From positions 1-53,653 of the IMG/VR virus record IMGVR_UViG_3300009503_000040: 53,653 nt of DNA. One strand, 5' to 3'. The position numbers and the translations under genes are program-made. The notes under the pieces are model-generated. The model did no database searches. It saw nothing but the letters and a program-made list of their open reading frames with translations, and was not told where the DNA came from. Position 1 is the first letter of the stretch, and each line of letters starts with the position of its first letter. The DNA comes from a virus. This document shows, one piece after another, positions 3,701 through 43,870 of the stretch.

Positions 3701-6700
3701 CTCTTGCCTGCTTAAGTGAATTGCTGCAATCACACTTCCTTTCTCTCCTCTTAATTCAGTCATAATAACGTAACTGTTAGGCATTGTAGCTGATTTAAAT
3801 ATCATTATAGGATCATGTAATTCTTTTGGCAAATCTTTTATTAAATCTAAGGTTAAATTGTCTTTAGTGATAGCTTTATTAATAACTTCTTTTGTAATTG
3901 TTATTGGCAGTTGTTTTGCCCCTAATTTAACAAGAATTAATGGTGTATTGGTTATAATTACAGGTTGCGTTGTTTTACCATTTAATAAATCATCAACTTT
4001 TTTATTAAAATTGCTTTGTGCTAAAGAAACCTCAGTATTTATTTCCTCTTTGGTAAATGTTGATTCTGTTTTGCTTATCTTTTTTATTTTTCCTGAAGCA
4101 AGACTATAGAAATATCCTGCCTCAAATGAAAATCCCAACTTATTTAAATAATATGCAATCTTTGACCACAGTTCTCTTAATAATTGAAATAATCTTTCTA
4201 ATCTTGTTCTCGGTTCTGAAGGATTTTTTTCCTGTTGTTCACGCCATTCAATATATTTTTTTGCAAGTCTTTCATGCGCTTCTTTCAACGAAGGATTATT
4301 AGCTACATCCCAAATTTCTCCTTTGCCATTCCATCCATTTTCACGCAATAAATTTCTTGCTAAGTGAGGTTTTGCAAGTGTTATAATCGACGCATGAAAA
4401 CTTTCTTCCCACGCTGTTGTTATATCAGCTTTTTCTGGGTCGAATATTATTGCTTTTTCTATTAAATCCGTTAAACCTTTTGCCTGCTCTTTTGATAAAT
4501 CTTTCTGGCCTATTAACCATTCAGAATTTATTCCCTTCCTAATCTCTTCAAGAAATTTCTTCTTTTCGCTGTCACTCATCTTTACATAAACTTTTTCCAA
4601 AGGAATGGATACCCGTCTTAATCCCTGTGCTGCTTCCCCTGTTTGCTCCAACTTGTTTTCATGTGCGGAAATAATCTCTTGCAATAATTTTCTTAAATTA
4701 GTATCTTTGATTGTAAATTTAGAAACGGCCTGTTGTGAAGATAGGTTGTTTAGCCTAACGATGTACAACAGGTCGTTTCTATTTATTTCAAGCGTTGAAT
4801 TATCATAATGCCATTTACCAGTATTATCTACTCCAACACTAATTTTAACTGTAAAATCTTTTCCATCAATTTTTACTGATTTAAGAAAATATTCAAACTT
4901 ATCATATCCTTTAATATTCTTTTCATTTTTTAACTCTCCAATATAAATAGCATCTCTTAATATTCCTGGTGTATTTTTATTTACAACCAGCTGCTCATAT
5001 CTGCCAACATGTGTAAATGGTTTTTTCTCACTTTCTCTGCCAATGAATATTTCTTTGCCCGTGTCTTTATTTATTACACTTTTAGGATGTATTTTTTTAT
5101 AATATTTTCTTACTGTATGGGTAATTTTAAGTCTGTTTTTTTCCCAATTATCTTTATTAATATCAAATCCTAATTCCTTCAAGTCATTGTTATATTCAAT
5201 CTCTTTATCATTAATTATCTTTTTATAAATCTCTGCTTTCCCCTCTTCTGTGTTTTTTTGAAATAAACTTTGTTGTTCTCCGCCAAATAACTCATACTGA
5301 ACATTTTTATTTTTTAGCTTCAATATTTTTTTATTGATTGTTTCAAGTTCAGTCTCTGCTTTTTGAATAGTCTCAAAATCATTTTTCTTTTTTGCTTCTT
5401 CAATAACATATTCAAGATGTCTTTTCCTGTCTTGCAATAATTGTATTTCACTTCTTCCCTCATCAAATATAGAATAGCTCTCTGTTGGTTCTGCGGTTAA
5501 CTCTATTTCTTCAATTGGTAAAGTTTTCCTGATTAAGACGGGATTGCTTGCTTCTTCTGGTTTGTTCTCAGGAATCCATTCTTTCGGAATTGGTAAGACT
5601 TTTTCTCTGTAATCTAATAATAAATTGCCGTCTTTTTTTCTATTCCTTACTGCTTCATTTAATTTATCTTTTAAATATGTATAACTCTTTATTAACTCAG
5701 GTTTTTCTTTTATTGCACGCCTGATAAAAACATTTACATTTTCAAATCTTTTTCTTTCAACAAAATTATTTAAAAAACTTGCTAATGCTCTTTGTATCTC
5801 TTCTTTCTGTGTGTATCGTTCTAATGTTAATAATTTCTCTCTGACAGGCAATTCATGATCAAATGAATTATAAGCCCTCAATAAAGCAATTTCAATTTCA
5901 TCTCTTGGACTATCTTTATATTCAATATACTTTTGATAAAGTATTTGTCCTGTTTTATTTATTTCTTGTCGGATTTCCTCTTCGCTAATTCTTCCAGCAG
6001 CTTTTGTCTTGCTTTCAATATCCTCAGCAAGTTTTTCGAGTTCTGCCGCATCTCCGCTGGTGATAATTTGTGTGGCGATTTCTTCATCTATTTCCCCTCT
6101 ATTAATTGATTTTTCTAATTGCTCAAATATATCAAATTGATTATTAATTATCTCGCTGATATTATTTTCTAATTTCTTTATTTCTTCTGTGTTCGCAAGA
6201 ATTTCTTTTTGAAATAAATTTTTTTGTTCTAATGGTGCACCTTTCGACAAAGCAGTTAATTCTCTGTTTCTCGCTCTCAATAAATCTATCTTCTTTTGAA
6301 TATCTCTTGTATCAGCTCTCGCTCTTGCACCTGTGCTTTCCAATTTGTCAAGTGCAAGTTTTTCATTAGGCTTAAATGTAATATCTGTTACTCTGTCTTC
6401 TACTTTATTAAAAAATTCCTCTTTGGTAATAAATGAATTTCTTAATTTATCCCTGTAGAAATAATCAAATAATTCCTGCTCATGTCCGTCTGTTATTTGT
6501 GGAAATTGCTTTCTTAATTCTCCTACCCAAGAAGCATTTCTTTCTAAATATGGATATGACTTCGCTGCTTCTGAATTTAATGCTCTTATAAATTCACCTT
6601 CCTCATTTAAATAAGATAAATTATCAAGCAGTTTTATTCTTGATTCTTTTTTGAATATATCTAATAACTTAGATTTTGAATAACCCTGTTGTTTTGCTCT

Positions 6701-9700
6701 CTTATATGCTTTAATATCAGATAATAAATTTTCTTGTGTCGACTTGCGGTTGCTTTCTATTATTGCATAATTAATTGCTTCTTCTTCTGTCCCCTCAAAA
6801 AATTTAACAGGTATTGTTTTTGCATTCCTTCTCTTCATTCCCTCTAAACGAGAATGTCCTGCCAATACATAAATATTATTATCCTTTGGGTCTTTCCATA
6901 CAATTATAGGGTCAAATGCTGCAGGGTTATAATTCTTTTCAATTGCTCTCGCTGTTTCTTCACTGTAAGATTCTGCTCTATTCTGAAACCTGCTTTCATC
7001 TGTTTTTATTTCTCTAATTGGAATTTCTTTTACTTCAGCAAATTTTGTCTCTTGAAATTTATTCTCAATTTCTTTTGCAGTTTCTTTATTAGCAACAGTT
7101 TCATTTATTGCTTTTTTAATCTCTGGTTCGATAACTTTTTTATTCTCAGCTTTTCCTTTTGGCTCGCCATATAACAGTTCAGCAACATTTTTTTCTGGGA
7201 ATCCATTCCTTTGGAATTTTTCTATTTTTTCTAATTTATCTAATGGTTCAATCCATTCTTCATTCCCTACTTTTACTATTGCAGTCGGAGTATCTTGAAA
7301 TTCTGTAATTTCAAGAACTTCACCTTCTGTAAATTTATCTGGGATATAGTGCCCCGAAACGTATCTTGCTCTTAATTTTACTCTATCTCCTATATTAATA
7401 TTAGGTTCTTTTTTCTCTGTCTTAGTCTGCAAATCGGGATTTTTCCAGTCCACCCCTTGTTTTTCTAATATTCTTCTCGCAGCTTGCGTTGATTCTAAAT
7501 CGGGGTGTCCGTTGGCAATATCAACAAGTTTTTCTATTCTCGTGGGAGGTCTTATTTCTCCTTTAGCAACCTTATCGGCATATTCTTTCCTTAATTCTTC
7601 TCTGCGCTGATTATTTCTCTGCATTTCCTCAGAAACTTTTTTAATGGCTTGTTGTTTTCCTCGACCTTCTTGTATATTCTTATGTAATGCTGGCTCTGCA
7701 CCTCCCATAAATGGAGCTTTATTCTTTGCTAAATAAGTTTCTTCATCGATTATTTCTAACGGTTTTACTTGCTCTTTCGGGTAACTAGGTGTTTCAGTTT
7801 TGATTTTTTGTAAATCTGGATAGTCTTTTAATACTTCCTCAGGGATTTTTTTACCTTCTTTTAATGCTTTCTCAACTACATCTCTGTGTGTAACTGGAGT
7901 ATTTAATCTATTAAGGTATGTTTCTAATTCTTGCTCTGAAAGTTTAATTTCACCTTTTGATGCCTTCTCTATTTTTTGCCTTGCTTCATCAGTAACTCCA
8001 TATAATAATTTTGTTAATTCTTTAATTCTTGCTAATTCTTCAGCTCCGCTTCGTTTCGTAAATTTTTCTTGCCTTGTCTCGGCACGCAATCTCTCTCTCT
8101 CATTATTCCATTCTTCCGCTGTCATTTCATAAGGTTTCTTCTCTTCTGTAGTTTTAGTTTCTTTTGGGATTGGTTTAGTTTTTTCTGTGCTTTGTTCTTC
8201 TGTCGCTGATTCTTCATCAATTTCAGTCTTTAGTTCTTTTTCCGAAGGAATGGATTCCCGGCTTTCAGCTTTAGGATAATATGAACTAATAAATTTCCCT
8301 TCTCTAAAATCACCGATGTCTAACTCTTCATTAATTGCTGCACTTGTTATATAATTTTCTGCAAATTCTTCTGCTTTTTCTTTATCCATTCCTTTCTTAA
8401 TTAAATCATCAGTTAAATATCTAAAAGCTATTGCTAATGGGTCTTTATGACTTCCTTCCCCCATTACAAATATTTTTTCTACTCCTTCGGGAAATTTTAT
8501 TTTTACTGCTTTCCCACTTTCTGCACCTATTACATTCTCTTTTAATCTTTCTTCTGCATTGATTAATTTTAATTTTTGTTCTGCAAGTCCATATAAATCT
8601 GAATCAACATCTGCACCAAGTAAATCTGCAGCTAATGTTCTTCTTGCAAAATCTTCTAACAATAATCCTTTTTCTAATTCTTTATCTTCTGCATTATTTA
8701 ATCTTGCCTTATTGTTAGGCAGTTTAAGATAATTATTGAATTCATTTTCAAAATCTTTACCTAATTTATTTTTTGCTTCTTTTATAACTTCTTGAACTGG
8801 CAAAGTAGTTAATATTTCTTTTGCTTTTTCTGCATCTTCTCTCTCACTTCTGGATAATCGTTCAATGGTCTCAGCGGGTGTCTTTTGTTGAATGTCCTGG
8901 CTGCTAATTCCTTTGCCTTCCTCGCTGGCAGTCCTTTCTTCAGATAATAATCCCTTATTGCTTCTTCCGAAGGAATGGATTCCCAGTATTCCTTCGGCAT
9001 TTTCACCTCCTATTCTTTTAATTTCCTCTTCTAATAACTTAGGATAGTTTTTTTGTAATTGTAATTCTTCTGAAGTAAATTTAGTTTTACCTTTTACAAT
9101 ATCTTCTGCTAACTTCCTTACATTCTTTATCTCATCTGATTCTAATAATCCTTTTACTCCTGTGGTCTTTTCTATTGGAATTTGTTCTTTTTCTCTTATT
9201 TTGGGTATCCATTCCTTCGGAACTGGTTTTTCTCCAAAAAATAATTCTCCTGAAGTTGGTGCTAATTTTTCTAATTTGCTTTGTATAATAGCTTCTTCTT
9301 CTGGAGTTCTACCCTTTAAATTCTTTGATGATTCAATAACTTTTTCTGCAGTTTTTGATAATGGAATTCTTTCTGATGGAATAATAGGCAAGCCTTGATA
9401 TGGTGTCACTAAGGTTTTATTCTTAAATGCTTCTTCGAGTCCTTCATTAATTTTCTTTTCAAGCGTTTTATCTAACTTTATCTTAGCTCCCTTAATTCCT
9501 AAAATAGTCCCAAAGAATAATCCATTTTCAACTAACTCTTTTGCTATTTCTCTATCAGTCGGATTTAATGAATCAAATGCCCCGGCTTTTTGAAGTTCTT
9601 CTGTCCCTTTAGATGAAAGCAATGAACCAATACCTACACCAGGACCAAAAGCAAAAGGTACTATTATATTTGTTATCTCTTCTCCTTTTTTTCTGTCATA

Positions 9701-10690
9701 ACCTAAACTTTCAGCAATGTCTCCTCCTATTTTAGTTGCAACTGGCATTACCGCTGTAAACCCCATTACCGCAGGAATTGAAGATATAATCCCTTTAATT
9801 GCACCTGCTGCTTGTTCTCCTAATCCTCTGGCAGCTGTTTTTAACCCGGCCGGAATTTGTTCAGGTTCTTCTTCCGAAGGAATGGAATCCCAATATTTTG
9901 ATTTTACCTGATAGCCCTGTTCTTTATATATATTGGCTATTCCCGGGTCAGTAGTATTTGTTATTTCTTCCCCTCTGTCATTATAAATTGTATAAATATC
10001 TTTTACTTTTTCCTGCCCTGTAATTTGTCGAATTCCTTTACGAATATTTTCTCTTCCTTGATATATTTTTCTTAAAGCATCAGCAAGATTCTCTGGGACA
10101 CTTTTTATCCCTTCTTCTAATTTCTCAATATATCCGCTCAAATAAGATTGTGCTTTTCTGGGTGCTTCTTTAACAAATTTAGTATCTGGAACTGAATACA
10201 AATTAGATTGATTAATTTGTAGTGGTGTAAATCTCTTCTCTTTGCTTGCTTGAATAATATCTAATATACCAGTTGGTTCTATCACCTGCGAATTATCTTT
10301 TACTTGTGCTTGAGATATTAAATTCCCAATTACATTTTTTGACTTTTCTGCTCTATATGCTGAATCTTTTTGAGCATCTGTTTGGGAATCCATTCCTTTG
10401 GAAAAATTTTGCCTTAACCAATAATCCGCACTAAAAGGATCCTCTGCCTGTCCGCCTTCTTTTTGGTGGACTTGTCCGCCTTCTTTTTGGCGGAACTGTC
10501 CATTGTTTTTTTGTTCGTTAAGAATATTTTCAACATAATCTATACGTTTGCCTGTTTCTATTAATTTCTTCAGACCAGGACCAAAATTATTCTCTGTCTC
10601 TGTAATCGAATCTGGGAATCTCCCAAAGGGATGGATATCCACATTCCTTTGGAATAAGTCAAGATTTATTAATTTTTCTAATCCTGTCAT
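737..10690 (-). CDS. Giant phage polyvalent protein with ParB-like and PBECR-like nuclease domains
   Basis: A 3317-residue protein, probably packaged and injected with the DNA. Seen in order: a Gly/Ala-rich, membrane-seeking stretch (about 281-361); the polyvalent-protein motif around VPxxVLxDYPDL (about 933-964); a small barrel-like domain (about 1094-1157); a ParB/sulfiredoxin-like domain (about 1221-1318) with GHSRLEGM; an LPD3-like segment (about 1890-1972); an EESFH segment that looks like a degenerate metallopeptidase (about 2090); a PBECR (barnase-EndoU-ColicinE5-RelE)-like domain (about 2285-2378); and a helical C-terminal third. Large polyvalent proteins of this design are known to carry injected effectors. 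The ATG overlaps the upstream stop as TAATG, so it is translationally coupled. Nine copies of the 20-bp palindromic element and one tandem GC-rich repeat are translated within it. No RNA polymerase motif was seen. Confidence 0.85.
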   Translation of the reverse strand: MTGLEKLINLDLFQRNVDIHPFGRFPDSITETENNFGPGLKKLIETGKRIDYVENILNEQKNNGQFRQKEGGQVHQKEGGQAEDPFSADYWLRQNFSKGMDSQTDAQKDSAYRAEKSKNVIGNLISQAQVKDNSQVIEPTGILDIIQASKEKRFTPLQINQSNLYSVPDTKFVKEAPRKAQSYLSGYIEKLEEGIKSVPENLADALRKIYQGRENIRKGIRQITGQEKVKDIYTIYNDRGEEITNTTDPGIANIYKEQGYQVKSKYWDSIPSEEEPEQIPAGLKTAARGLGEQAAGAIKGIISSIPAVMGFTAVMPVATKIGGDIAESLGYDRKKGEEITNIIVPFAFGPGVGIGSLLSSKGTEELQKAGAFDSLNPTDREIAKELVENGLFFGTILGIKGAKIKLDKTLEKKINEGLEEAFKNKTLVTPYQGLPIIPSERIPLSKTAEKVIESSKNLKGRTPEEEAIIQSKLEKLAPTSGELFFGEKPVPKEWIPKIREKEQIPIEKTTGVKGLLESDEIKNVRKLAEDIVKGKTKFTSEELQLQKNYPKLLEEEIKRIGGENAEGILGIHSFGRSNKGLLSEERTASEEGKGISSQDIQQKTPAETIERLSRSEREDAEKAKEILTTLPVQEVIKEAKNKLGKDFENEFNNYLKLPNNKARLNNAEDKELEKGLLLEDFARRTLAADLLGADVDSDLYGLAEQKLKLINAEERLKENVIGAESGKAVKIKFPEGVEKIFVMGEGSHKDPLAIAFRYLTDDLIKKGMDKEKAEEFAENYITSAAINEELDIGDFREGKFISSYYPKAESRESIPSEKELKTEIDEESATEEQSTEKTKPIPKETKTTEEKKPYEMTAEEWNNERERLRAETRQEKFTKRSGAEELARIKELTKLLYGVTDEARQKIEKASKGEIKLSEQELETYLNRLNTPVTHRDVVEKALKEGKKIPEEVLKDYPDLQKIKTETPSYPKEQVKPLEIIDEETYLAKNKAPFMGGAEPALHKNIQEGRGKQQAIKKVSEEMQRNNQRREELRKEYADKVAKGEIRPPTRIEKLVDIANGHPDLESTQAARRILEKQGVDWKNPDLQTKTEKKEPNINIGDRVKLRARYVSGHYIPDKFTEGEVLEITEFQDTPTAIVKVGNEEWIEPLDKLEKIEKFQRNGFPEKNVAELLYGEPKGKAENKKVIEPEIKKAINETVANKETAKEIENKFQETKFAEVKEIPIREIKTDESRFQNRAESYSEETARAIEKNYNPAAFDPIIVWKDPKDNNIYVLAGHSRLEGMKRRNAKTIPVKFFEGTEEEAINYAIIESNRKSTQENLLSDIKAYKRAKQQGYSKSKLLDIFKKESRIKLLDNLSYLNEEGEFIRALNSEAAKSYPYLERNASWVGELRKQFPQITDGHEQELFDYFYRDKLRNSFITKEEFFNKVEDRVTDITFKPNEKLALDKLESTGARARADTRDIQKKIDLLRARNRELTALSKGAPLEQKNLFQKEILANTEEIKKLENNISEIINNQFDIFEQLEKSINRGEIDEEIATQIITSGDAAELEKLAEDIESKTKAAGRISEEEIRQEINKTGQILYQKYIEYKDSPRDEIEIALLRAYNSFDHELPVREKLLTLERYTQKEEIQRALASFLNNFVERKRFENVNVFIRRAIKEKPELIKSYTYLKDKLNEAVRNRKKDGNLLLDYREKVLPIPKEWIPENKPEEASNPVLIRKTLPIEEIELTAEPTESYSIFDEGRSEIQLLQDRKRHLEYVIEEAKKKNDFETIQKAETELETINKKILKLKNKNVQYELFGGEQQSLFQKNTEEGKAEIYKKIINDKEIEYNNDLKELGFDINKDNWEKNRLKITHTVRKYYKKIHPKSVINKDTGKEIFIGRESEKKPFTHVGRYEQLVVNKNTPGILRDAIYIGELKNEKNIKGYDKFEYFLKSVKIDGKDFTVKISVGVDNTGKWHYDNSTLEINRNDLLYIVRLNNLSSQQAVSKFTIKDTNLRKLLQEIISAHENKLEQTGEAAQGLRRVSIPLEKVYVKMSDSEKKKFLEEIRKGINSEWLIGQKDLSKEQAKGLTDLIEKAIIFDPEKADITTAWEESFHASIITLAKPHLARNLLRENGWNGKGEIWDVANNPSLKEAHERLAKKYIEWREQQEKNPSEPRTRLERLFQLLRELWSKIAYYLNKLGFSFEAGYFYSLASGKIKKISKTESTFTKEEINTEVSLAQSNFNKKVDDLLNGKTTQPVIITNTPLILVKLGAKQLPITITKEVINKAITKDNLTLDLIKDLPKELHDPIMIFKSATMPNSYVIMTELRGEKGSVIAAIHLSRQEQNHIVNKIASVYSKERDKTFIEWIEKGLLRYYNKNKSQIWLQSRGLQLPKEVTKSGHTKILTEEDFVNDKLRQKISEIQGELYPKDLEYYLNRIEKIKNIFELKNWKKKHEAEIDELPAWDKEEIIYAWNKRHKDFTGQEGNWKTAEAKQKNKYENTKEAYKKYLPEASEIYDEGFRRYTDFSEKIKEKAGNISPDDILKLYREVIKAKLREYEKSKEETGTFVEPKTDITDKKAEEIKKEIEKYLINKNIPAETQEKILQTAEEIINNPKNRIGKHTKIKRLTYFGEKVKIMTLKYGAAGAELAQRMAKGNVIQGQLVDKYFQIVNKIKDIYDDIRSEEYGEQRIKEIEDKIINALEDRANYKEYLETDDEIKLYELYKMIYGDKDMNDGLYAEIKKAGYPVRTDYFPHIIRDGFIIDEIVSDPKDIIKTDVRGLNNFIYADSRYLKPREFDIEDIKRDLLSVTQNYIFSVAKALAYKDAVNYYYTDFKKDIPELLRKQGFSTAIEFMRSNLNPELPSKNLAAKFFRGIRSAEYMNFLTFSLKNAVQNYTQKDFARLYMTNEAVKLTDKIFYKLKTPTGNLLNAIHEASQETPRFLELTAEEANRSKILKINERIKNYEPFHLAEMTNWRYAELGGIIDYVTKQKAYKDLINKGMGEIEAINKVLEDKKMFDMAVRNGMDLAANSQISPTAAYRPSLFDKEIVRFFLMFRRFPITHLEHLSQTLFKSLEGAEGLRAQRILRRGLSEDVKTVEALRAVEYFRKAMDIMIDKIKNKKDYKDYEIGTIEEMRDWLKQQEKILNKTIEKLEPIKNKSEIIYHWSKYYAKMLMISTLFQFLYDIMDRMFKQIINGDDEEKRMQDLLKSGRLTEKQKRALITELAFKSIFDSMPLPAYGLNPANLMITPLIPKVEIFPYGNYSIFNERGIVRSITNYGLNIVPGLGLVDRVTGRVLSNKITDIISPKQERKNQIKMIPPGRGRVNERPGLGR
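4595..4614 (-). repeat. Palindromic element, VSIPLE frame
   Basis: One mismatch from consensus. Translated inside the polyvalent protein at about residue 2026 as VSIPLEK, between the LPD3-like and EESFH segments. Confidence 0.8.
5571..5589 (-). repeat. Palindromic element, PKEWIP frame
   Basis: Slightly diverged copy (ATTCTTTCGGAA in place of ATTCCTTTGGAA). Read as PKEWIPEN at about residue 1701 of the polyvalent protein, in a charged linker. Confidence 0.7.
7197..7216 (-). repeat. Palindromic element, FQRNGFP frame
   Basis: Exact consensus copy, read as FQRNGFP at about residue 1159 of the polyvalent protein, directly after the small barrel-like domain. Confidence 0.85.
8240..8259 (-). repeat. 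Palindromic element, ESIPSE frame
   Basis: CGAAGG variant of the consensus, read as RESIPSEKE at about residue 811 of the polyvalent protein. Confidence 0.85.
8809..9000 (-). CDS. Possible overlapping small gene embedded in the polyvalent gene
   Basis: A 63-residue frame on the same strand as the polyvalent gene but shifted, starting MPKEYWESIPSEE and ending KKQKKY. Its ATG is preceded by GGAGGTGAAA, the same strong ribosome binding site pattern used by this phage before the genes starting at 31118 and 12493. The peptide looks protein-like (KGLPARKAKELAARTF, HPLRPLNDYPEVREKM), while the main frame here is low-complexity Ser/Glu-rich. One palindromic element covers codons 6-12. It may be a real nested gene, or the relic of a former frame restored by insertions of 20-bp elements. 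Its function is unknown. Confidence 0.45.
   Translation of the reverse strand: MPKEYWESIPSEEAIRDYYLKKGLPARKAKELAARTFNKRHPLRPLNDYPEVREKMQKKQKKY
8965..8984 (-). repeat. Palindromic element, GIHSFG frame (WESIPSE in the nested frame)
   Basis: CGAAGG variant. The polyvalent protein reads it as LGIHSFGR at about residue 569; the nested frame starting at 9000 reads the same DNA as WESIPSEE. Confidence 0.85.
9203..9222 (-). repeat. Palindromic element, PKEWIP frame
   Basis: GGTATCC variant, read as PKEWIPKI at about residue 490 of the polyvalent protein. Confidence 0.8.
9872..9891 (-). repeat. Palindromic element, DSIPSE frame
   Basis: Read as WDSIPSEEE at about residue 267 of the polyvalent protein, just before its membrane-like segment. 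Confidence 0.8.
10384..10403 (-). repeat. Palindromic element, SKGMDSQ frame
   Basis: Exact consensus, read as SKGMDSQ at about residue 96 of the polyvalent protein. Confidence 0.85.
10451..10494 (-). repeat. Tandem pair of TCCGCC/GGCGGA palindromes, translated
   Basis: Two 20-bp units (10451-10470 and 10475-10494), each TCCGCC, eight bases, then GGCGGA (GGTGGA in the first), 4 bp apart. They are read as two QKEGGQ units at about residues 65-80 of the polyvalent protein. The same 20-bp design occurs in noncoding DNA at 30537-30556. Confidence 0.75.
10614..10654 (-). repeat. Composite palindromic element near the polyvalent start
   Basis: Two fused element units with a GGATATCC centre. Read as FQRNVDIHPFGRFP within about residues 12-26, close to the start codon of the polyvalent protein. 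Confidence 0.75.
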
Positions 10691-11859: not shown

Positions 11860-11860
11860 T

Positions 11861-12504: not shown

Positions 12505-12540
12505 ATTCGCCTTTGGCGAATCCATTCGCCTTTGGCGAAT
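12505..12540 (-). repeat. Two tandem ATTCGCC-TTT-GGCGAAT hairpins
   Basis: Perfect palindromes at 12505-12521 and 12524-12540, separated by 2 bp. They fill the gap between the GNAT stop codon and the ribosome binding site of the next gene. A second tandem pair is at 30787-30821. On the minus strand no T-run follows, so they are not typical terminators. Confidence 0.85.
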
Positions 12541-12911
12541 TAATAATAATTTTTTTCCAATATTTTGTGATTTTCAAATACTTCATAAAACCCAATTTTC
12601 TTAAATAATCCTGCATTCTTATCATTTGCGTAACATCTTATTATCTTTATACCTGCTTCTTTTATTTTATTTTCTATCCAGTCAAAAAGTTTTTTCCCAA
12701 TCATTGGATTTTCACTGACAAACGGTTCTATCATTAATACATATCTTAAATTAGCAATAGCTTTAATCTCTCCATTATTATCTTCGGCAATTATTATTTT
12801 CCCTTCTTCAGGGACAAACAATCCATACTTTTCAGAAAACTCTTTAATCTTACTGCTGTCATTTTCTAAAATGTAGTCTCTTATTTTTGGGAATCCATTC
12901 CTTTGGAACAT
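12540..12911 (-). CDS. GNAT-family N-acetyltransferase
   Basis: About 123 residues from the ATG at 12911; an alternative in-frame ATG at 12932 overlaps the upstream stop. It shows GNAT features: a central strand pair (IIIAEDNNGEIKAIANLRYVLMIEPFVSE, seen in part), then P-M-I-G-K-K as a short acetyl-CoA loop, then a C-terminal IRCYANDKNAGLFKKIGF segment, the usual ANxxAxxLYxKxGF-type strand and helix. It would transfer an acyl group from acyl-CoA to an amine; the substrate is unknown. It sits among tail and ejection genes, so it may modify a virion or host protein. The palindromic element directly follows the ATG as FQRNGFP. Confidence 0.75.
   Translation of the reverse strand: MFQRNGFPKIRDYILENDSSKIKEFSEKYGLFVPEEGKIIIAEDNNGEIKAIANLRYVLMIEPFVSENPMIGKKLFDWIENKIKEAGIKIIRCYANDKNAGLFKKIGFYEVFENHKILEKNYY
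12889..12908 (-). repeat. Palindromic element at the GNAT start
   Basis: Exact consensus placed immediately after the ATG at 12911, so the acetyltransferase begins MFQRNGFP. Confidence 0.85.
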
Positions 12912-12919
12912 TCTTTTTA

Positions 12920-26865: not shown

Positions 26866-27382
26866 CCCTTATTTTAATTTCTTGAATAATTTTATCTATT
26901 AATCTTTCATTCTTTAAATTGCCAGTTGATAAGCCAAGAATTTTTGCTATTTCAATTAATTCTTTCCTCCCTAATTTCAATAATGCTTCTTCTATGTTTG
27001 AATGATTTTCTTCTAAAAAATCAACTGGGTCAAATTCAGTTGAGTTTTTTTCATTATGGGAATCCATTCCTTTGTGGATATCTTCCGAAGGAATGTGGTC
27101 GTCCATCCCTTCGGGAGATATCCACATCCCTTTTGGAGAAGTTGCATCATCTTTATTTTCATTTTCATCATCCGCTGAGGCAAATTGATAAATATGCGGA
27201 TACGCTTTTGTATATATCTCTGCAATGTCATCTGGGATTTCAATTGGTTCTTTAGCTTTGAAATTGATTACAATATCTTTCCCATTTTCTTTCCCGTTGT
27301 GTTCTGTCGTATTTCTTATTTTATTTAATCTTTTAGTTGAGATTACAAGTAGTTTGTCAACTTTTGAAACTACGATTGCCAT
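26855..27382 (-). CDS. Head-region protein with C-terminal HeH/SAP-like helices
   Basis: About 175 residues from MAIVVSKVDK, chosen for the GGGAG site upstream; an earlier ATG at 27418 would overlap a hairpin. The N-terminal beta part (VSKVDKLLVISTKRLNKI, DIVINFKAKEPIEIPDDIAEIYTKA) is followed by an acidic linker and a helix-extended-loop-helix of the LEM/SAP/HeH type (ALLKLGRKELIEIAKILGLSTG). The linker consists largely of a composite palindromic element. It lies between the decoration protein and the adaptors, so it is probably a minor head protein. Confidence 0.65.
   Translation of the reverse strand: MAIVVSKVDKLLVISTKRLNKIRNTTEHNGKENGKDIVINFKAKEPIEIPDDIAEIYTKAYPHIYQFASADDENENKDDATSPKGMWISPEGMDDHIPSEDIHKGMDSHNEKNSTEFDPVDFLEENHSNIEEALLKLGRKELIEIAKILGLSTGNLKNERLIDKIIQEIKIRDGQ
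27058..27140 (-). repeat. Composite palindromic element (about 83 bp), translated
   Basis: Several units in series with a perfect GTGGATATC / GATATCCAC inverted pair (27074-27082 and 27117-27125). It is read as a linker containing SPKGMWISPEGMDDHIPSED and KGMDSH between two domains of a head protein. The same composite arrangement occurs in an intergenic region at 43806-43870. Confidence 0.85.
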
Positions 27383-27413: not shown

Positions 27414-27432
27414 GCCACTCCTCAGGAGTGGC
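27414..27432 (-). terminator. Hairpin between decoration and head-protein genes
   Basis: A perfect 8-bp stem (GCCACTCC / GGAGTGGC) with a 3-base loop, followed on the minus strand by TAAATTTTTAG. It may reduce downstream expression after the highly expressed capsid genes, or protect mRNA ends. Confidence 0.6.
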
Positions 27433-30494: not shown

Positions 30495-30556
30495 TCTTGT
30501 TATCGAGTTACGATTTATCCGCCTTTGGCGGATTTATCCGCCATTTTTTTGGCGGG
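30495..30556 (-). promoter_or_regulatory. Conserved leader box and two GC palindromes
   Basis: Plus-strand order: CTCTTGTTATCGAGTTACGA, then TCCGCC-TTT-GGCGGA (30518-30532) and TCCGCC-8 nt-GGCGGG (30537-30556). The box matches those beside hairpins A and C. The second palindrome has the same 20-bp design as the translated pair at 10451-10494. Confidence 0.55.
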
Positions 30557-30786: not shown

Positions 30787-30821
30787 ATTCGCCTTTGGCG
30801 AATTTATTCGCCTTTGGCGAT
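30787..30821 (-). repeat. Two tandem ATTCGCC-TTT-GGCGAAT hairpins
   Basis: A perfect palindrome at 30787-30803 and a near-perfect one at 30806-30821, 2 bp apart, repeating the arrangement at 12505-12540. The second covers the last codons (AKGE) and stop region of the gene ending at 30804. Confidence 0.8.
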
Positions 30822-31118
30822 TTGAATTATTTCTTCATCACTCTTGCCGAAAAAGTTTTTCGCATATTTTGTAAACTCATCAAAGCTGTCAAATATTTTG
30901 GTAAAATGTTTGTATGAACTTTCTACAAGACCATTTTTTTGTGGTTTTGTTGGAAGTCCCTCAATATCTACATCAGCCATTACTTTGCCGTCAACTTCCT
31001 TTATTCTAATGGAAGTAGATATTTTATTTTTCTTTAAATCTTTTGCAAGATTAAACTTTTCTATTACTCTTTCCTTTGCAGTTTTCCTATCTTCTTCCAA
31101 AGGAATGGATTCCCACAT
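30804..31118 (-). CDS. Hypothetical protein starting with a palindromic element
   Basis: About 104 residues from the ATG at 31118, which has a strong GGGAGGTG site. The protein begins MWESIPLEEDRK, so the 20-bp element forms its N-terminus right after the start codon. The rest is charged and helical/beta (STSIRIKEVDGKVMADVDIEG; FTKIFDSFDEFTKYAKNFF) with no recognised family. Lying between portal-side small genes and the scaffold, it may be a minor head or regulatory protein. Confidence 0.65.
   Translation of the reverse strand: MWESIPLEEDRKTAKERVIEKFNLAKDLKKNKISTSIRIKEVDGKVMADVDIEGLPTKPQKNGLVESSYKHFTKIFDSFDEFTKYAKNFFGKSDEEIIQIAKGE
31095..31114 (-). repeat. Palindromic element at a gene start, WESIPLE frame
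   Basis: Exact consensus directly behind the ATG at 31118, read as WESIPLEE. Confidence 0.85.
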
Positions 31119-31142
31119 TTTTTCACCTCCCAAATAGAAAAT

Positions 31143-36430: not shown

Positions 36431-36937
36431 TCATTTATTATTAGTATTCCATTTTTTTAATTTATATTTAACTGCCTCTTCCTTCTTTACATATTTTGGT
36501 TCACCCTTTATATTTATCAGTTCATATTCATTGGCAATAGGGTCATAACTTGCACCATAATAATATGAATCTTTGTATTTTTCCATTAATTCTTTCCCTG
36601 TATATGTTTTTATTTTTTTATCATAAGAAATAAAATCAGCAATAGAAGGCAGCTTATCGTATCCTCTGTAATTGTCAATTACATAATTAACAGCATCAAG
36701 CATTCTCTCGTCGTTAAAACCGTTTGCTTTGAATCGCTCTTTCAGCAACTTTATCATTTGAGGCTCCATCTTAGGAAATGCTGTTAATATTTTTTCTGTT
36801 GCTTCTATTATTGCCTTTTCACTTAAACCGCAGCCTTGATAAATCGAAATCTCATCGCTTGAGGTCTGGGTCGTTTGCAATGTCTTCTGAAATTCTTCTG
36901 AGTTTATTTTCTGTAATGTATTTTGAATAGACTCCAT
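36431..36937 (-). CDS. Putative replication-associated (helicase loader-like) protein
   Basis: About 168 residues from MESIQNTLQKINSEE, chosen for the GGAGT site just upstream; an in-frame ATG at 36994 is possible. Helical region: LSEKAIIEATEKILTAFPKMEPQMIKLLKERF, seen in parts, then MLDAVNYVIDNYRGYDKLPSIADFISYDKKI. Helical proteins of this sort after a replication initiator are often helicase loaders; no specific family was confirmed. It overlaps the upstream gene by 86 bp. Confidence 0.6.
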   Translation of the reverse strand: MESIQNTLQKINSEEFQKTLQTTQTSSDEISIYQGCGLSEKAIIEATEKILTAFPKMEPQMIKLLKERFKANGFNDERMLDAVNYVIDNYRGYDKLPSIADFISYDKKIKTYTGKELMEKYKDSYYYGASYDPIANEYELINIKGEPKYVKKEEAVKYKLKKWNTNNK

Positions 36938-37790
36938 TTCTATACTCCGTTTCTTTTTCCCTGATATTTCCATTTTCATCAAGAGCTTTTTCAAGCGTCT
37001 TGAAATTTCTGAAATTCCTCAGTTTTGCTTCTTTCATTATCGCTAAAGTCTTTTCATCACCGAATCTGCATATTAAATTCTCAATGAATTCTCTTTCGGG
37101 AAGTGTAGGATTTCTGCCATAACTCTTGATTAATATTTCTGTTGCAGGGTCTTTGTTGTTTGGATATCCCTCATGAGGAAGAAGAGGAAAAAATTCTTTT
37201 TCTGAACTTTGCACAAATTTTTGTTCAACTTTTTCCCTTTGAGAGGGAATTTCTTTTCCTTTACTTTCCTTTACTTTACTTTCCTTTAATTTAGTTTTAT
37301 TTACTTTACTTTCCTTTACTTTACTTTGTGGGTTTTCGTCTGTAGAAACTTCCTCAAAATCCTTGCCTGCGGGGTTTTCGTCTGTAGAAACCTCAATGGG
37401 TTGTGGTTTTGGTCTGTGGAAACTCGGTTTTTTTGGTACCTCTGCCCGTCTGTTTTTATAAACATCGGCGATTCTGTCAACAAAATTCTGGCACCAAATT
37501 ACCTTATTATTTTCCCATAATTCACTGTCAATTGCTTTTAATTTTGATAACAAATTTAATATTTCATTACAGGAATTGTCGTCTAAATTTGTTTTTGCCT
37601 GTAGAAATTCCCAGTTACCTGGATTTCTACAGTCAAAAAAGTGACCTTCTGTTGAACCTAATAATTCAAGTAGTTTAAACCAAAAAGCATATCCATTATT
37701 TCCAAATTTTTTTTCCAGAATGTAGATTGTGGTCTTGTGGCTGCAATCATGTGGGAAATAATCTACCGTTGCTTTCTTAGGTCTGCTCAT
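36852..37790 (-). CDS. Replication initiator-like protein with DUF4373 (Lin1244/1753-like) N-terminal domain
   Basis: A 312-residue protein. Residues 1-110 match the Lin1244/Lin1753 N-terminal winged-helix type: YFPHDCSHKTTIYILEKKFGNNGYAFWFKLLELLG, seen in parts, and LDDNSCNEILNLLSKLKAID. The middle is a low-complexity Lys/Ser/Glu-rich linker coded by DNA repeats. The C-terminal domain (PTLPEREFIENLICRFGDEKTLAIMKEA) resembles DnaD-type or replisome-organiser tails. Such proteins start phage replication by binding the origin, which may lie in or near this gene. The linker length is likely variable between relatives. Confidence 0.75.
   Translation of the reverse strand: MSRPKKATVDYFPHDCSHKTTIYILEKKFGNNGYAFWFKLLELLGSTEGHFFDCRNPGNWEFLQAKTNLDDNSCNEILNLLSKLKAIDSELWENNKVIWCQNFVDRIADVYKNRRAEVPKKPSFHRPKPQPIEVSTDENPAGKDFEEVSTDENPQSKVKESKVNKTKLKESKVKESKGKEIPSQREKVEQKFVQSSEKEFFPLLPHEGYPNNKDPATEILIKSYGRNPTLPEREFIENLICRFGDEKTLAIMKEAKLRNFRNFKTLEKALDENGNIREKETEYRNGVYSKYITENKLRRISEDIANDPDLKR
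37256..37327 (-). repeat. Tandem TTTACTTTCC-type microsatellite in coding DNA
   Basis: Repeated units of TTACTTT/CCTTTAC over about 70 bp, translated as repeated KESKVK/NKTK units in the linker of the replication protein. Similar iterated sequences sometimes form origins, but this may be only a slippage-prone linker. Confidence 0.75.
37330..37391 (-). repeat. 20-bp direct repeat in the replication gene
   Basis: GGGTTTTCGTCTGTAGAAAC occurs at 37330-37349 and again at 37372-37391, with a weaker third copy near 37411. It encodes duplicated VSTDENP units. It is possibly an iteron-like site of the replication origin. Confidence 0.65.
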
Positions 37791-38368
37791 TTTATTACCG
37801 TTATTTTAATTTCTGGATGTATTATTTTAAAGATACTTTCAAATAATCTGAATTTTAATTTCCATAATTCCATTTGAACACCCTTAATTTCTACATATTC
37901 AAGTGTCCCGTCTTTATGTGTTAACACAAAATCAATGTAATAATTACATATATGAGTAAATGATTTTCCTTCTTCTTTTAATTTTAACATTGGCATATCA
38001 GTCAATACAGCTTTATTATTCTCTTCAATAACATTTATCTCAATTTTTGATTGTCTTTCCCATTCTTTAATTTCACCTGATAATTTCAATAAATCGAGTT
38101 CCTCAGCATATTTAGCTTCCCAACCGCTGTGATATTTTACACCATTATACACTGTCTTTCTATGTTTATTAAGACGTGGTTTTTTCTTAAATATTTTTTT
38201 ATAATTTTCTGCACTTATTTCTTCGGGTAATTCATCTGGACTTCTATAAAAATTAATTTTCTGGGAATCTATTCCTTTGAGACCAGAACAATGTCTGTTT
38301 TTCTGGGTATCCATTCCTTTGGAATTTATCAGATTTTTATGACCATATTTTATTTTTTCTTCATACAT
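37787..38368 (-). CDS. DUF1064-like phage nuclease (PD-(D/E)XK / T7 endonuclease I-like)
   Basis: About 193 residues from MYEEKIKYGHKN, preceded by GGAG. The core is YNGVKYHSGWEAKYAEELDLLKLSGEIKEWERQ, seen in parts, then YYIDFVLTHKDGTLEYVEIKG and WKLKFRLFESIF. The E...D...ExK pattern (GWEAKYA, IDFVL, VEIKG) is that of DUF1064 proteins, related to Holliday-junction or T7 endo I-type nucleases. It probably processes branched phage DNA before packaging. Two palindromic elements are translated near the N-terminus (SKGMDTQ, KGIDSQ). Confidence 0.8.
   Translation of the reverse strand: MYEEKIKYGHKNLINSKGMDTQKNRHCSGLKGIDSQKINFYRSPDELPEEISAENYKKIFKKKPRLNKHRKTVYNGVKYHSGWEAKYAEELDLLKLSGEIKEWERQSKIEINVIEENNKAVLTDMPMLKLKEEGKSFTHICNYYIDFVLTHKDGTLEYVEIKGVQMELWKLKFRLFESIFKIIHPEIKITVIK
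38263..38282 (-). repeat. Palindromic element, KGIDSQ frame
   Basis: Diverged at one end. Read as LKGIDSQ in the DUF1064-like nuclease, 22 bp from a second copy. Confidence 0.75.
38305..38324 (-). repeat. Palindromic element, SKGMDTQ frame
   Basis: GGTATCC variant, read as SKGMDTQ near the N-terminus of the DUF1064-like nuclease. Confidence 0.8.
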
Positions 38369-38384: not shown

Positions 38385-38768
38385 TTAAACAACCGAAAAA
38401 ATATCATCAGTTTGGTCAACTTTATTTTTATAAACGAATTTAATTCTCATTTCATCAATAAATTTTATCCTTTGATATACTTCATCAATTTTACTTTTTA
38501 AATAATTTATTCCTTTTAAATAACCTTCTTCACTTTTAGGAATATAATAACCGTCATTGCAACTGCATATAACAAATTCCTTATAAACTTTTTGGTCTTC
38601 TATTATTTCGTTTATTAAATAAGCTAATCTTCTTTGAAAATCTCTTAACGATTCGTTCGGACCGGCATATTCATCATAAAAATATTTAGCAGATAACGGC
38701 TTATTTTCATTAGAATAAGTCTTCAAATGATAAAGTATATTTGTTTTTGTTAGATTATTTTTGTTCAT
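38385..38768 (-). CDS. Hypothetical protein, possible winged-helix
   Basis: A 127-residue protein. The N-terminal part (TKTNILYHLKTYSNENKPLSAKYFYDEY, then SLRDFQRRLAYLINEII) looks like a winged-helix/HTH used for DNA binding; the later GYYIPKSEEGYLKGINYLKSKIDEV is helical. No family is confirmed. It overlaps the end of the methyltransferase gene by 14 bp and is probably co-translated with it. Confidence 0.6.
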   Translation of the reverse strand: MNKNNLTKTNILYHLKTYSNENKPLSAKYFYDEYAGPNESLRDFQRRLAYLINEIIEDQKVYKEFVICSCNDGYYIPKSEEGYLKGINYLKSKIDEVYQRIKFIDEMRIKFVYKNKVDQTDDIFSVV

Positions 38769-39777
38769 AATTCATTTCCATTTCGCTTTGACGGGACAAT
38801 TTGTCTAATCTCATATTAGCTATTATTATATAATCTTGATTTAATTCAATCCCTACATAATTTCTATTTAATTTTTTCGCCATTAGTGCGGTAGTGCCGC
38901 TTCCCATGAACGGGTCCAGAATTATACCTCCTTCTGGACAACTTGCTAAAATTGGAATCTCTAAAAGTGATGATGGATAAGCAGCAAAATGGTCAACATT
39001 AATATTAAATTCTTTAGAAAACGAATGAGGTTCATAATTTATTTGCCATACCATAGGAATATTTTTCATTAATTTTGGGGATTCATTATATTGTTTTTGC
39101 ATATCCTGTTCCGAAGGAATGTATTCCCAAAAGAATAGATTCCCAGAAGAATAATCTATAGTTTTAATTGGAATGCAGACATTATTTAAATTAAAATAAT
39201 ACCGTTTATTCTTCGTGAAATGGTATAGATATTCATAACTGAGAATAAATCTATCTTTAGCAGAACAAGGAATTACTGTTCCTATTGTAGTTTTTTCCTT
39301 TTTAATCAATATTTGTTTAGCCCAAATTATTTTTTGTCTCAATATCCATCGTTGCTCATCTATCATTTTTATTGCTAATCTTTCAGGTTTAAGTAATAGA
39401 GATTTAGCAGGATAATTTTTAATTCTTGCTCTGCCAGAATAAATATTTTTCGATAGTTTATGCTTGCCAGGATTATTGCCATGACAAAATCTTTTATCTG
39501 CTCTGCCGCTGCTCGCATAAACATCACCCATATTAATCCATAATGAACCGTCTTTTTTGAGAACTCTTTTTAATTTGTTTGTTATCAATAATAATTTATT
39601 AAGATATTCTTCAAAAGAATTTTCCAATCCTATCTGTCCAGTTACATTATAATTTCTCATACTCCAGTAAGGCGGTGAAGTAATAATCATATCAATTGAC
39701 TCTTGAGGAATTTTATTTAATTCTTCAATAGTATCACCGCAGATAATTGTGTTTATTATGTTTTCTATTTTATACAT
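38755..39777 (-). CDS. Orphan DNA methyltransferase (beta-class, SPPY type)
   Basis: A 340-residue N6-adenine or N4-cytosine methyltransferase using S-adenosylmethionine. Catalytic motif IV is TSPPYW (residues 33-38) at the N-terminus, and motif I DPFMGSGTT (about 291) is near the C-terminus: the beta-class order. The target-recognition region lies between. No restriction enzyme is beside it, so it is probably an orphan that protects phage DNA or marks it for control. The palindromic element is inserted as FFWEYIPSEQD at about residues 215-225, within the region after the recognition domain; whether activity survives is unknown. Confidence 0.85.
   Translation of the reverse strand: MYKIENIINTIICGDTIEELNKIPQESIDMIITSPPYWSMRNYNVTGQIGLENSFEEYLNKLLLITNKLKRVLKKDGSLWINMGDVYASSGRADKRFCHGNNPGKHKLSKNIYSGRARIKNYPAKSLLLKPERLAIKMIDEQRWILRQKIIWAKQILIKKEKTTIGTVIPCSAKDRFILSYEYLYHFTKNKRYYFNLNNVCIPIKTIDYSSGNLFFWEYIPSEQDMQKQYNESPKLMKNIPMVWQINYEPHSFSKEFNINVDHFAAYPSSLLEIPILASCPEGGIILDPFMGSGTTALMAKKLNRNYVGIELNQDYIIIANMRLDKLSRQSEMEMNYEQK
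39109..39145 (-). repeat. Palindromic element and partial second copy inside the methyltransferase
   Basis: A 20-bp copy (39109-39128) plus a decayed unit (39128-39145, AAAAGAATAGATTCCC). Translated as GNLFFWEYIPSEQ. Confidence 0.75.
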
Positions 39778-41778: not shown

Positions 41779-41779
41779 A

Positions 41780-42988
41780 TTATTTGCTTAATAATTTTTC
41801 TTGTTCAATTAACACATTTATAATTTTATCTCTGTCACTACCGCCAAAGGCTTCAAGTCTTTCTTTATTATCTTTTTTGAATTTCCTTAACTCTGATATA
41901 TTGCTGATAAATTTTATTGCTTTAATTACTGCATCAGGATTCTCCCAATCTTCTGGACTTAATTTTTGAGTATCAATTCTTTTAGAATTAGTTTCCTTCT
42001 CTGCATTTGGGAATCCATTCCTTTGGAATTTATTTTCTTTTTCTGCTTCTTCTACTTCTACTTTTTCTATCTCTGAGAATTCATTCTTTTCTCGAAGGGC
42101 TGTGGCAGTATTATTTATATTCTCTAAATTTTGTCTTGCTTCTGGGCTATCACTTTGGGATTTATCATCTGGGAATCCATTCCTTTGGAATTTTTCAATT
42201 TCTTTTGGGAAAGCATCATTAACGCTGTGATATCCTTCTTCAATACCTTTCAATGCTCCAGATATCAAGAGAATCTTATCAATATCCCAGGTTTTTGTTT
42301 TGCCGAAATTGAGTTCTACTCTTTCAATTGGAACATTTAATCTCTCAGCTCTCTTTACTGTCATTTCCCTTGCTTTATCCAATCCATTCTTCTTTACATA
42401 TTCTTCTAATTTTTTTCTGTAACCTTCTTTTGCTTTTTTAATTCCTGCTTCAATTACATAATTAGGTATTGCATTAAGAATTACATTTCGCATTGCCTTT
42501 GAAGTCCCTATCTGAAATACAATCTCATCATTACGCTCTTTATCATAAATTGCTTTTCCATTTTTGGTTTTTAAAATCTTTTTCTTTAACAGAAATGGTC
42601 TTGATAAATTGAACCCTGTTTCAAAATCAACAAAGTCTCCTATCAATATATATTTGTCCCCGATATCAAAAGGTCTTACTTCAACTGAATTATTTCCCCA
42701 ATTTCGAGCAAGTATTAATGCTCCGTTAATTCCAACCCCTTCTATATATTTTCCGCCTTGAGGATATGAATAATAGAAATCTTCGCCTGCAAGTGCTGCT
42801 TCGCTTTCGACTCTGCTGATTATATCAGGCAGACTTCTTTTTTTTATAACCTGCACAGCTGTTTGATAACGAGTTTTTGTTTGAACCAGACCCTGCACCC
42901 TCATAAGTTCAGTTGATGAAAGAGTTTCTTCGCTTACTTCATCTATCTGAATATCTTGAATAAGTTCATTTTCAATTTGATTATTCAT
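41780..42988 (-). CDS. Putative single-strand annealing/recombination protein
   Basis: A 402-residue protein. Residues about 50-190 contain SLPDIISRVESEAALAGEDFYYSYP, EGVGINGALILARNWGNN and GTSKAMRNVILNAIPNYVIEAGIKKAKEG, which recall phage annealing proteins (RecT/ERF-type: substrate-active core followed by a 'KA.RNA...IP' helix). The basic helix near 195-240 and a long acidic linker follow. The linker holds two FQRNGFP copies of the palindromic element. The C-terminus (PDAVIKAIKFISNISELRKFKKDN) may recruit partners. Adjacent to a Cas4/RecB-like nuclease, it would form a Red-like pair; the exact family is uncertain. Confidence 0.65.
   Translation of the reverse strand: MNNQIENELIQDIQIDEVSEETLSSTELMRVQGLVQTKTRYQTAVQVIKKRSLPDIISRVESEAALAGEDFYYSYPQGGKYIEGVGINGALILARNWGNNSVEVRPFDIGDKYILIGDFVDFETGFNLSRPFLLKKKILKTKNGKAIYDKERNDEIVFQIGTSKAMRNVILNAIPNYVIEAGIKKAKEGYRKKLEEYVKKNGLDKAREMTVKRAERLNVPIERVELNFGKTKTWDIDKILLISGALKGIEEGYHSVNDAFPKEIEKFQRNGFPDDKSQSDSPEARQNLENINNTATALREKNEFSEIEKVEVEEAEKENKFQRNGFPNAEKETNSKRIDTQKLSPEDWENPDAVIKAIKFISNISELRKFKKDNKERLEAFGGSDRDKIINVLIEQEKLLSK
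42009..42028 (-). repeat. Palindromic element, FQRNGFP frame
   Basis: Exact consensus in the C-terminal linker of the annealing protein. A decayed relative (EKNEFSE) lies between this and the next copy. Confidence 0.85.
42171..42190 (-). repeat. Palindromic element, FQRNGFP frame
   Basis: Exact consensus, the second copy in the same linker, read in the same frame as the copy at 42009. Confidence 0.85.
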
Positions 42989-43019: not shown

Positions 43020-43793
43020 TTAATCTCTTATACTCCCGCCGTACCTTTTTTCACATACATTCCAATATTTACAATAACGCTTTGAACATAAAAAAGAATT
43101 TCTGTTTGGAATAAATATCCCTTTTTGAATTGCTTCCCCTACAGTTTGAAATATTTTTAAGAAATGTTCTTTGTCTATTGTTACAGTTATGTGTCTTATT
43201 TCAATTGTGTCTCGTTTAAGAAAATCTACTCTTGCGCCTTTTACTATTCTTCCTGTCGCTTCTTCAAGTATTGTATATGCAGAAAGCTGTCTTTGATAAT
43301 TTAATGGAACACTCCCGTTTACAATTTTGTTCGTAGTCTTATGGTCAATTAATTGATTATCAATATCATAAAGGTCTATTGTTCCCATCAAACCAAAATC
43401 ATATCCCTTAAATTTTACTTTTATCTTTTGCTCAACAGCTGAGGGTATTATTCTCGGTGAAACTTCTTTATGATATTTTTCAATTAATTTAATTCCCTGA
43501 TCTTTGATTACTCCAGGATTCTCATCCACTAAATCAATAGAATCAACTTTTTGAAATTCATCTTCGAAAGTATCAGAGAATATTTCCTTAGCTTCTTCAA
43601 CTGGGATATCTTTTTTTGTCTCCACTTTCTGTGAATAATTAACAGCAAGTGTTTTGTGAATTGATGTGCCAAATGCTAAATAAGATTTATTTGGCACTTC
43701 TATTTTTTCAATTTCCTGAAAGAAAAATTTAGCACTGCACTCTAAATATGTGTTAATCCCGGTTGGGCGCAAATATGTAATGTCTTCAGTCAT
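43020..43793 (-). CDS. Cas4/RecB-like PD-(D/E)XK exonuclease with Fe-S cysteines
   Basis: About 257 residues from MTEDITYLRP. Motifs: GTSIHKTL (His), GLMGTIDLYDIDNQLIDHKTT (D...DHK, catalytic D-x(n)-(D/E)-x-K) and YQRQLSAYTI (QxxxY). Four cysteines (one in LECSAKFFF, three in the C-terminal SFLCSKRYCKYWNVCEKR) match the iron-sulfur frame of Cas4/AddB-type nucleases. It would resect DNA ends for the neighbouring annealing protein. A composite palindromic element upstream adds an in-frame ATG at 43850, but the ATG at 43793 has the better ribosome binding site (GGAG). Confidence 0.85.
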   Translation of the reverse strand: MTEDITYLRPTGINTYLECSAKFFFQEIEKIEVPNKSYLAFGTSIHKTLAVNYSQKVETKKDIPVEEAKEIFSDTFEDEFQKVDSIDLVDENPGVIKDQGIKLIEKYHKEVSPRIIPSAVEQKIKVKFKGYDFGLMGTIDLYDIDNQLIDHKTTNKIVNGSVPLNYQRQLSAYTILEEATGRIVKGARVDFLKRDTIEIRHITVTIDKEHFLKIFQTVGEAIQKGIFIPNRNSFLCSKRYCKYWNVCEKRYGGSIRD

Positions 43794-43805
43794 TACATTT
43801 ACTCC

Positions 43806-43870
43806 TTCCAAAGGAATGTGGATATCTTCCGAAGGAATGGATATCCACATCCCCCTGGGAGATATCCATT
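43806..43870 (-). repeat. Composite palindromic element, intergenic
   Basis: Units in series with a perfect GTGGATATC / GATATCCAC inverted pair (43818-43826 and 43840-43848), filling the gap between the coiled-coil and nuclease genes. Its final GGAAGGAG may supply the ribosome binding site of the nuclease; it can also be read in frame as MWISIPSEDIHIPLEG. Confidence 0.85.

Follow-up and report, generated by a model that had tools for sequence, protein, structure and literature searches.

A 21-bp double palindrome that probably behaves as frame-neutral mobile DNA in Ignavibacteria and their phages

Many unrelated proteins of one phage contain short peptides encoded by the same DNA word read in different frames, which raises the question of whether this word is mobile DNA that has settled within genes or a signal conserved in place. 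The word occurs in the IMG/VR virus record IMGVR_UViG_3300009503_000040, the whole of which (53,653 bp, GC content 31%, about 94% coding) was analysed and is called the window below. A preliminary description, made from the letters alone, had taken the word for a dispersed 20-bp palindrome, either selfish or a conserved protein or DNA signal. We consider, with a probability of about 0.87, that the element is a non-autonomous, frame-neutral, 21-bp double-palindrome mobile DNA of Ignavibacteria and their phages. The earlier reading of the copies as insertions was right, with corrections that are given where they arise.

When the window was searched with TTCCRAAGGAATGGATTCCC, 19 occurrences with no more than three mismatches were found, compared with 0.02 expected from shuffled sequence, and resolving the nested copies gave 24 clear copies at 18 sites (Table 1), which agrees with the more than 20 copies counted before. 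The earlier impression that nearly all of them are on the coding strand is not borne out: 10 are on the plus strand and 14 on the minus strand, where the phage genes that carry them lie. Seventeen of the 18 sites fall wholly within open reading frames (ORFs), and the stack of copies at 43806 does so only partly. All five peptide readings quoted previously are present in proteins, and the nine sites ascribed to the large polyvalent protein were recovered, one of them double.

Reading all copies in register defines a unit of 21 bp, an 11-nt hairpin NNCCRAAGGNN followed by TGGATTCCCA; by position, N1 N2 C C R A A G G N2' N1' precedes TGGATTCCCA or, alternatively, TGGATATCCA. The hairpin half has a 4-bp stem and a 3-nt loop, and the 10 nt after it form a second palindrome, TGG....CCA, so that the architecture is that of a double palindrome. 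In the generalised search pattern, CCRAAGGNNTGGATTCC, the two outer stem positions were left free, and these positions nevertheless pair in 100 and 99 of the 110 copies; the numbers predicted for independent columns are 86 and 52, and shuffles never exceeded 94 and 72. The outer stem pairs co-vary (T-A, C-G and G-C): of the 13 window copies retained by a strict filter, 12 have the stem TT/AA; it is TC/GA in 57 other copies, and TG/CA and CC/GG also occur. The element has no stop codon in any of the six frames, in both orientations, as had been stated, and its length is exactly seven codons. Stop-freedom is not remarkable by itself, since random double-hairpin 21-mers with a GC content of 31% are also stop-free in six frames in about 5% of cases. 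All six frames are in use across the copies, the sixth (GNPSLRE/GNPSLWE) being seen in bacterial copies.

The element inserts as a precise 21-bp unit into a preferred, pre-existing CTTN^NAA target, without duplication or loss of target bases. The preliminary description had asked for orthologues with and without the inserts and for uninterrupted flanks, and such filled and empty orthologues were found for six bacterial sites; at five of them the length difference is exactly 21 bp, not 20 bp, and the target is neither duplicated nor lost, while at the sixth, in a GH94 gene (72% DNA identity), the boundary is ambiguous by one base. In MurF, the element is present in one genome (G052) and absent from eight aligned relatives, the matched stretch being 474 nt in the former and 453 nt in many others. 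The filled glycogen phosphorylase gene is 81-89% identical in DNA to its empty relatives, and the corresponding values are 94% for a DUF7149/Eco57I-like restriction-modification protein, 82% for a membrane protein and 56-58% for a Sel1 protein. The preferred flank already exists in empty sites; the closest MurF relative, for one, reads ...TTTCTTC^AACTTC... there. The flanks of 110 copies give the consensus C(67%)T(62%)T(73%)N ^ N A(69%)A(54%). CTT occupies positions -4 to -2 in 40% of the copies, where base composition alone would give 2.2%. Pairing between the two flanks, as expected for insertion at palindrome tips, was tested and is absent, and in a further test element position 5 (A/G) showed no guide-like match to target base -1.

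These pairs also bear on whether the peptides could be ancient protein segments kept by common descent, for which the same peptides at the same positions of orthologues had been named as the telling sign. This was seen at one host site only, filled in both L040 and L056 at 93% DNA identity, as expected for inheritance after insertion. Common descent can be practically dismissed, as unrelated proteins read one and the same DNA word in all six frames and the orthologues without the element already refute it.

Copies also insert into copies, and related genomes carry the element at different sites. At three sites in the window, to which nesting is confined among the 123 copies searched, each stepwise removal of 21 bp gives back a recognisable copy; successive excision from the stack at 10613-10654, for instance, returns TTCCAAAGGAATGGATTCCCA. 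After excision, all stack units match the model perfectly except for one with 1 mismatch and one with 2, and five of the six inner insertions lie at position 13|14 of the outer copy. The stacks of 42, 63 and 84 bp are stop-free in all six frames. Two of them amend earlier assignments. The copy placed in the head protein is a real insertion, a stack of four, which lies instead in a small ORF (26855-27418) beside the major head protein. The copies placed at the start of a nuclease are likewise present, as a stack of three; since this stack lies between the upstream stop and the probable true start, MWISIPSEDIHIPLE is probably not the real N-terminus of the nuclease.

Only two phage relatives of the window were found, contigs L057 (head region) and L316 (nuclease region), and both are without the inserts, which answers the earlier suggestion to look at related phages. 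L057 carries an orthologue of ORF 26855-27418 that lacks the 28-residue stack. In L316, the nuclease is 71% identical and the match begins right after the stack-encoded part; its upstream stop codon runs directly into the nuclease start, a junction that in the window holds the 63-bp stack. Neither FQRNGFP insert is present in the annealing-type protein of L316 (40% identical); both fall within a variable linker. The methyltransferase copy lies in a gap-rich, poorly conserved part of the alignment with two homologues, and these proved too divergent for a clean empty-site comparison. Taken with the filled and empty pairs and the nesting, the relative phages without inserts uphold the earlier idea of a selfish, frame-independent coding palindrome. 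The earlier alternative of a conserved protein or DNA signal is unsupported, because six frames and unrelated positions are used. More generally, a functional DNA or RNA signal selected in place (packaging, regulation, methylation or a recombination hot spot) would suit the strong sequence conservation and the high density in one phage, but it is very improbable given that copies stand at unrelated positions, in both orientations and nested, that they are absent from the relative phages and from most relatives' genes, and that no Rfam family matches the element.

The element is found only in Ignavibacteria and their phages. Among 84,980 bacterial and archaeal species, exact matches occur in just five contigs, all of Ignavibacteria type and including a Melioribacter metagenome-assembled genome. 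The generalised search found 24 exact matches among 61 genomes of one family, with 0 for the reversed control, and about 85 matches with one mismatch in 323 genomes of the class, against 1 for the control. Other viral sequences matching the loose pattern, in which the outer stems do not pair and the base composition is different, were treated as chance. Similarly, a 22-bp repeat of G367, TTCCGAAGGAATGGCTTCGCCA, was rejected as a form of the element, as it belongs to a larger intergenic repeat; in that genome (L041, L185-L190) it lies within a conserved stretch, CAGTTTT...AACTGACGGAATCC, with at least 10 occurrences, apparently between genes. At position 1501 of L141, an element-like copy runs into GGATTCCCGCATTCGCGGGAAGGACA, a hairpin resembling the CGTC-tagged palindromes discussed below, and the two are either related or adjacent by chance.

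The element has jumped repeatedly into genes of the window phage and more rarely into those of bacterial relatives, whose chromosomes hold 0-13 copies per genome. The richest, G433, has 13 copies in 3.9 Mb, a density that predicts 0.18 copies for the window, which has 13 under the same strict filter. The element is more than 50 times denser in the window phage than in the chromosomes compared. Another phage record, G005, carries 5 copies within 20 kb, one of them in a ClpP-like protease gene, and in G544 a Mu-like prophage (L151, contig 1, 1380000-1399900) holds three of the five copies of the genome, two of these 44 bp apart in a protease/scaffold linker. Because of the window density and these two cases, phages look like favoured carriers. 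The phage may instead not be special: an unsampled host could be saturated with the element, in the way that Nostoc is with dispersed repeats, and the prophage colonised at host density. This has perhaps one chance in three in our view; the host genome is outside the collections, the nearest region of its attachment site and tRNA-Asp gene being 94% identical (G121), and copy number varies widely among related genomes. The densities just given and the phage-borne copies of G005 and G544 point the other way, and no genome among the 84,980 species has more than two exact copies of the TT/AA type, in a search that may omit records lying very close to the window. The burst of near-identical TT/AA stems would reflect amplification in the window phage lineage or in its unsampled host.

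How such an insert could be borne by so many genes is explained by its length of seven codons and its lack of stops, which account for the 72 of 110 copies found, in every one of the six reading phases, within ORFs of 120 aa or longer. The host genes concerned encode MurF, a GltD-like reductase, the N-terminus of a protein resembling valyl-tRNA synthetase, restriction-modification proteins and an MFS transporter. With these two properties the element may be tolerated in any protein loop or linker, and such tolerance would be the way in which a simple parasite lives in phage DNA that is nearly all genes.

The element encodes nothing, and its movement must therefore be in trans; presumably an enzyme encoded elsewhere copies and moves it. 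No target-site duplication, the hallmark of DDE-type miniature inverted-repeat transposable elements, was seen in the filled and empty pairs, which argues against DDE transposases. Transposition of the single-strand, hairpin-recognising kind (HUH/Y1-type) best fits the lack of duplication and the short 5-prime target word, and we put it forward tentatively. Several observations weigh against the proposal of a mobile element. No mobilising enzyme was identified when the Y1 genes were surveyed in 37 genomes and at 50 Y1 loci. Y1 transposases are present in 34 of the 37 genomes irrespective of the element, two genomes with copies (G544 and G003) have no Y1 match, and only 1 element lies near the 50 loci (120 kb). 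Predicted single-strand folding is weak, about -2 kcal/mol and not better than in shuffles, and the palindromes may therefore be protein-recognition symmetry and not hairpins. Finally, the empty sites for window genes come only from distant phages (40-71% identity), and the clean insertion boundaries derive from bacterial copies and not from window genes.

The same observations bear on the related explanation that the repeats are another family of repetitive extragenic palindromes (REPs), moved by the REP-associated tyrosine transposases (RAYTs) of the host or by IS200/IS605-type (HUH Y1) transposases, which we regard as possible and rather doubtful. In its favour are the absence of target duplication, the 5-prime target word and the Y1 genes of most host genomes, and REP families are also small palindromes, some of them within genes (PMC3733652). 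The element, however, has neither a GTAG nor a CGTC tag, its stems are of 4 bp, and its copies are chiefly intragenic. A RAYT association, proposed previously as a check, did not emerge: RAYTs occur in most hosts, and the element does not flank them. One Y1 locus, L302 (G673 contig 123), bears two GTAG-containing hairpins, TAATCCTCGTAGAGGATTA and AAAACATCGTAGATGTTTT, each twice, about 800 bp apart. It is probably a classical RAYT/REP pair in Ignavibacteria, and its GTAG motif is absent from the element.

Spread that needs no transposase is unlikely, whether by template-switching during replication or by recombination at short palindromes, for instance with the phage annealing protein and exonuclease. 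Palindromes do promote template switching, the phage does encode an exonuclease and an annealing-type protein, and some insertion positions are the centres of short inverted repeats. Against this, the insertions join exactly to unrelated sites, show a sequence preference and keep all target bases, and single precise copies are also found in housekeeping genes of host chromosomes.

The window itself is a prophage of Ignavibacteria type in tRNA-Asp, its ends being a direct repeat of 92 bp that overlaps the tRNA gene. Its genes include terminase, portal, major head protein and integrase, and the prophage is therefore complete or near-complete. A megablast search of INPHARED phages found no relatives of it, the major head protein has no relative in the 391 genomes searched, and the polyvalent protein, the methyltransferase and the annealing protein have no close relative in IMG/VR. 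ORF 12540-12932 matches no Pfam or PHROG family, and its GNAT label is that of the preliminary description.

Table 1. Copies of the element and related features in the window
Feature	Position	Strand	Reading or remark
Left attachment repeat, 92 bp	32..123	not assigned	
Polyvalent protein, 3317 aa	737..10690	-	MuF_C and LPD3 domains; 9 insertion sites
Element TTCCAAAGGAATGGATACCCG, polyvalent protein	4595..4615	+	antisense, RVSIPLE
Diverged element TTCCGAAAGAATGGATTCCTG, polyvalent protein	5569..5589	-	PIPKEWIPE
Element, polyvalent protein	7196..7216	-	FQRNGFP
Element, polyvalent protein	8240..8260	+	antisense, RESIPSE
Element, polyvalent protein	8965..8985	+	antisense, LGIHSFG
Element, polyvalent protein	9202..9222	-	VPKEWIP
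Element, polyvalent protein	9872..9892	+	antisense, WDSIPSE
Element, polyvalent protein	10383..10403	-	FSKGMDSQ
Stack of 2, 42 bp	10613..10654		outer minus-strand copy split at 13|14 by inner plus-strand copy 10621-10641
Element, near start of GNAT-like ORF 12540-12932	12888..12908	-	FQRNGFP
Stack of 4, 84 bp, ORF 26855-27418	27057..27140		28 codons (SPKGMWISPEGMDDHIPSEDIHKGMDSH)
Element, start of ORF 30804-31133	31095..31115	+	antisense, WESIPLE
Diverged element, DUF1064/resolvase-like protein	38262..38282	-	GLKGIDSQ
Element, DUF1064/resolvase-like protein	38304..38324	-	NSKGMDTQ
Element, DNA methyltransferase 38755-39777	39109..39129	+	antisense, WEYIPSE; then degenerate second copy at 39125
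Element, annealing-type protein 41780-42988	42008..42028	-	FQRNGFP
Element, annealing-type protein 41780-42988	42170..42190	-	FQRNGFP
Stack of 3, 63 bp	43806..43868		between gene 43869-44543 and PD-(D/E)XK nuclease 43020-43850
Decayed element TTCCGAAGTAATAGATTCACA, intergenic	47669..47689	+	
Right attachment repeat, 92 bp	53531..53622	not assigned	overlaps tRNA-Asp

Possible decayed copies with 3-6 mismatches stand at 9362, 32014, 39125, 41967 and 52309; if they are such, they would suggest older rounds of insertion. Tandem intergenic hairpins, TTCGCCAAAGGCGAA, were noted at 12506-12539, 30518-30532 and 30788-30821 (5 matches against 0.06 expected), and they are not the 21-bp element, with which they have only a CCAAAGG core in common. 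A 15-bp tandem repeat at 37250-37327, in ORF 36852-37790, encodes a linker rich in lysine, glutamate and serine (ESKVKESK).

At 21 bp, the element would be among the smallest mobile DNA elements known, at the bottom of the size range of mobile DNA, and the empty sites and nested copies make it a clear case. Being seven codons long and free of stops would let such a parasite establish itself in coding DNA and in phage genomes that contain little else, and the proteins would receive ready-made inserts of seven residues in six possible versions. The movement of tiny repeats, an old open question, becomes testable, as the target word, the exact ends, a loaded phage and the host lineages are now defined. 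It is conceivable, at somewhat less than even odds, that the element forms a separate class: frame-neutral, seven codons long, living in coding DNA, amplified in temperate phages that also spread it, and owing its movement to an enzyme that has so far been tied to no known miniature element.

Among known systems, the Rickettsia palindromic elements (RPEs) are 105-146 bp long and lie in frame at tolerated positions of unrelated proteins (Ogata et al. 2000; PMC2229807). The present element is likewise a selfish-looking palindrome in frame within unrelated proteins (MurF, GltD-like reductase, phosphorylase and phage proteins); it differs in its use of six frames and, as had been noted, in being far shorter, so that by length it does not qualify as an RPE. 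The CGTC-tagged REPs, which include the intragenic RPE-4 and RPE-6, have stems of 8-9 bp and loops of 4-5 nt, and are reported in Chlorobi and Bacteroidetes without a dedicated transposase (PMC3733652). They too are short, intragenic and clustered palindromes, and the 9-mer GGGAATCCA resembles the '...AAT + CCA' tail of these REPs, whereas the element has no CGTC, a 4-bp stem and a 3-nt loop. REPs and REPINs are GTAG-tagged, mainly extragenic and linked to RAYT genes (PMC3116915, PMC3733652). The element shares with them a palindrome of about 20 bp, probable movement in trans and the lack of target duplication, but GTAG is absent from the element and from its flank consensus, the copies are chiefly intragenic and there is no RAYT linkage. 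Membership in the classical RAYT/REP system was tested, and the element departs from it in tag, stem length and transposase linkage. Like the non-autonomous elements of IS200/IS605 (HUH) type, it inserts on the 3-prime side of a short target word and duplicates no target bases. In the mitochondria of fungi and algae, GC clusters and double-hairpin elements are tiny mobile double palindromes, reportedly with no known enzyme (PMC4478555). They differ in residing in organelle genomes and mostly between genes.

The closest likeness is to the small dispersed repeats (SDRs) of Nostoc, with which the comparison is one of properties. The families SDR1-SDR8 of Nostoc punctiforme (Elhai et al. 2008, Genome Res 18:1484) are reportedly dispersed repeats of 21-27 nt that share a predicted structure with compensatory changes and are confined to one bacterial lineage; some are said to nest in themselves, and their mobiliser is reportedly unknown. 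The present element resembles them in size, in dispersal (24 copies in the window and up to 13 per chromosome), in compensatory changes of the stem (here the outer two pairs, with weak folding energy) and in self-nesting (here stacks of 2, 3 and 4). Precise insertion at a short target is a further likeness, CTTN^NAA here, while SDR5 inserts precisely between bases 3 and 4 of HIP1 (PMC4390886). It differs in belonging to another phylum, in being seven codons long with six gene frames in use, and in being densest in a phage. By this analogy, the element appears to work like the Nostoc SDRs, but its setting is coding DNA, a phage and a different phylum.

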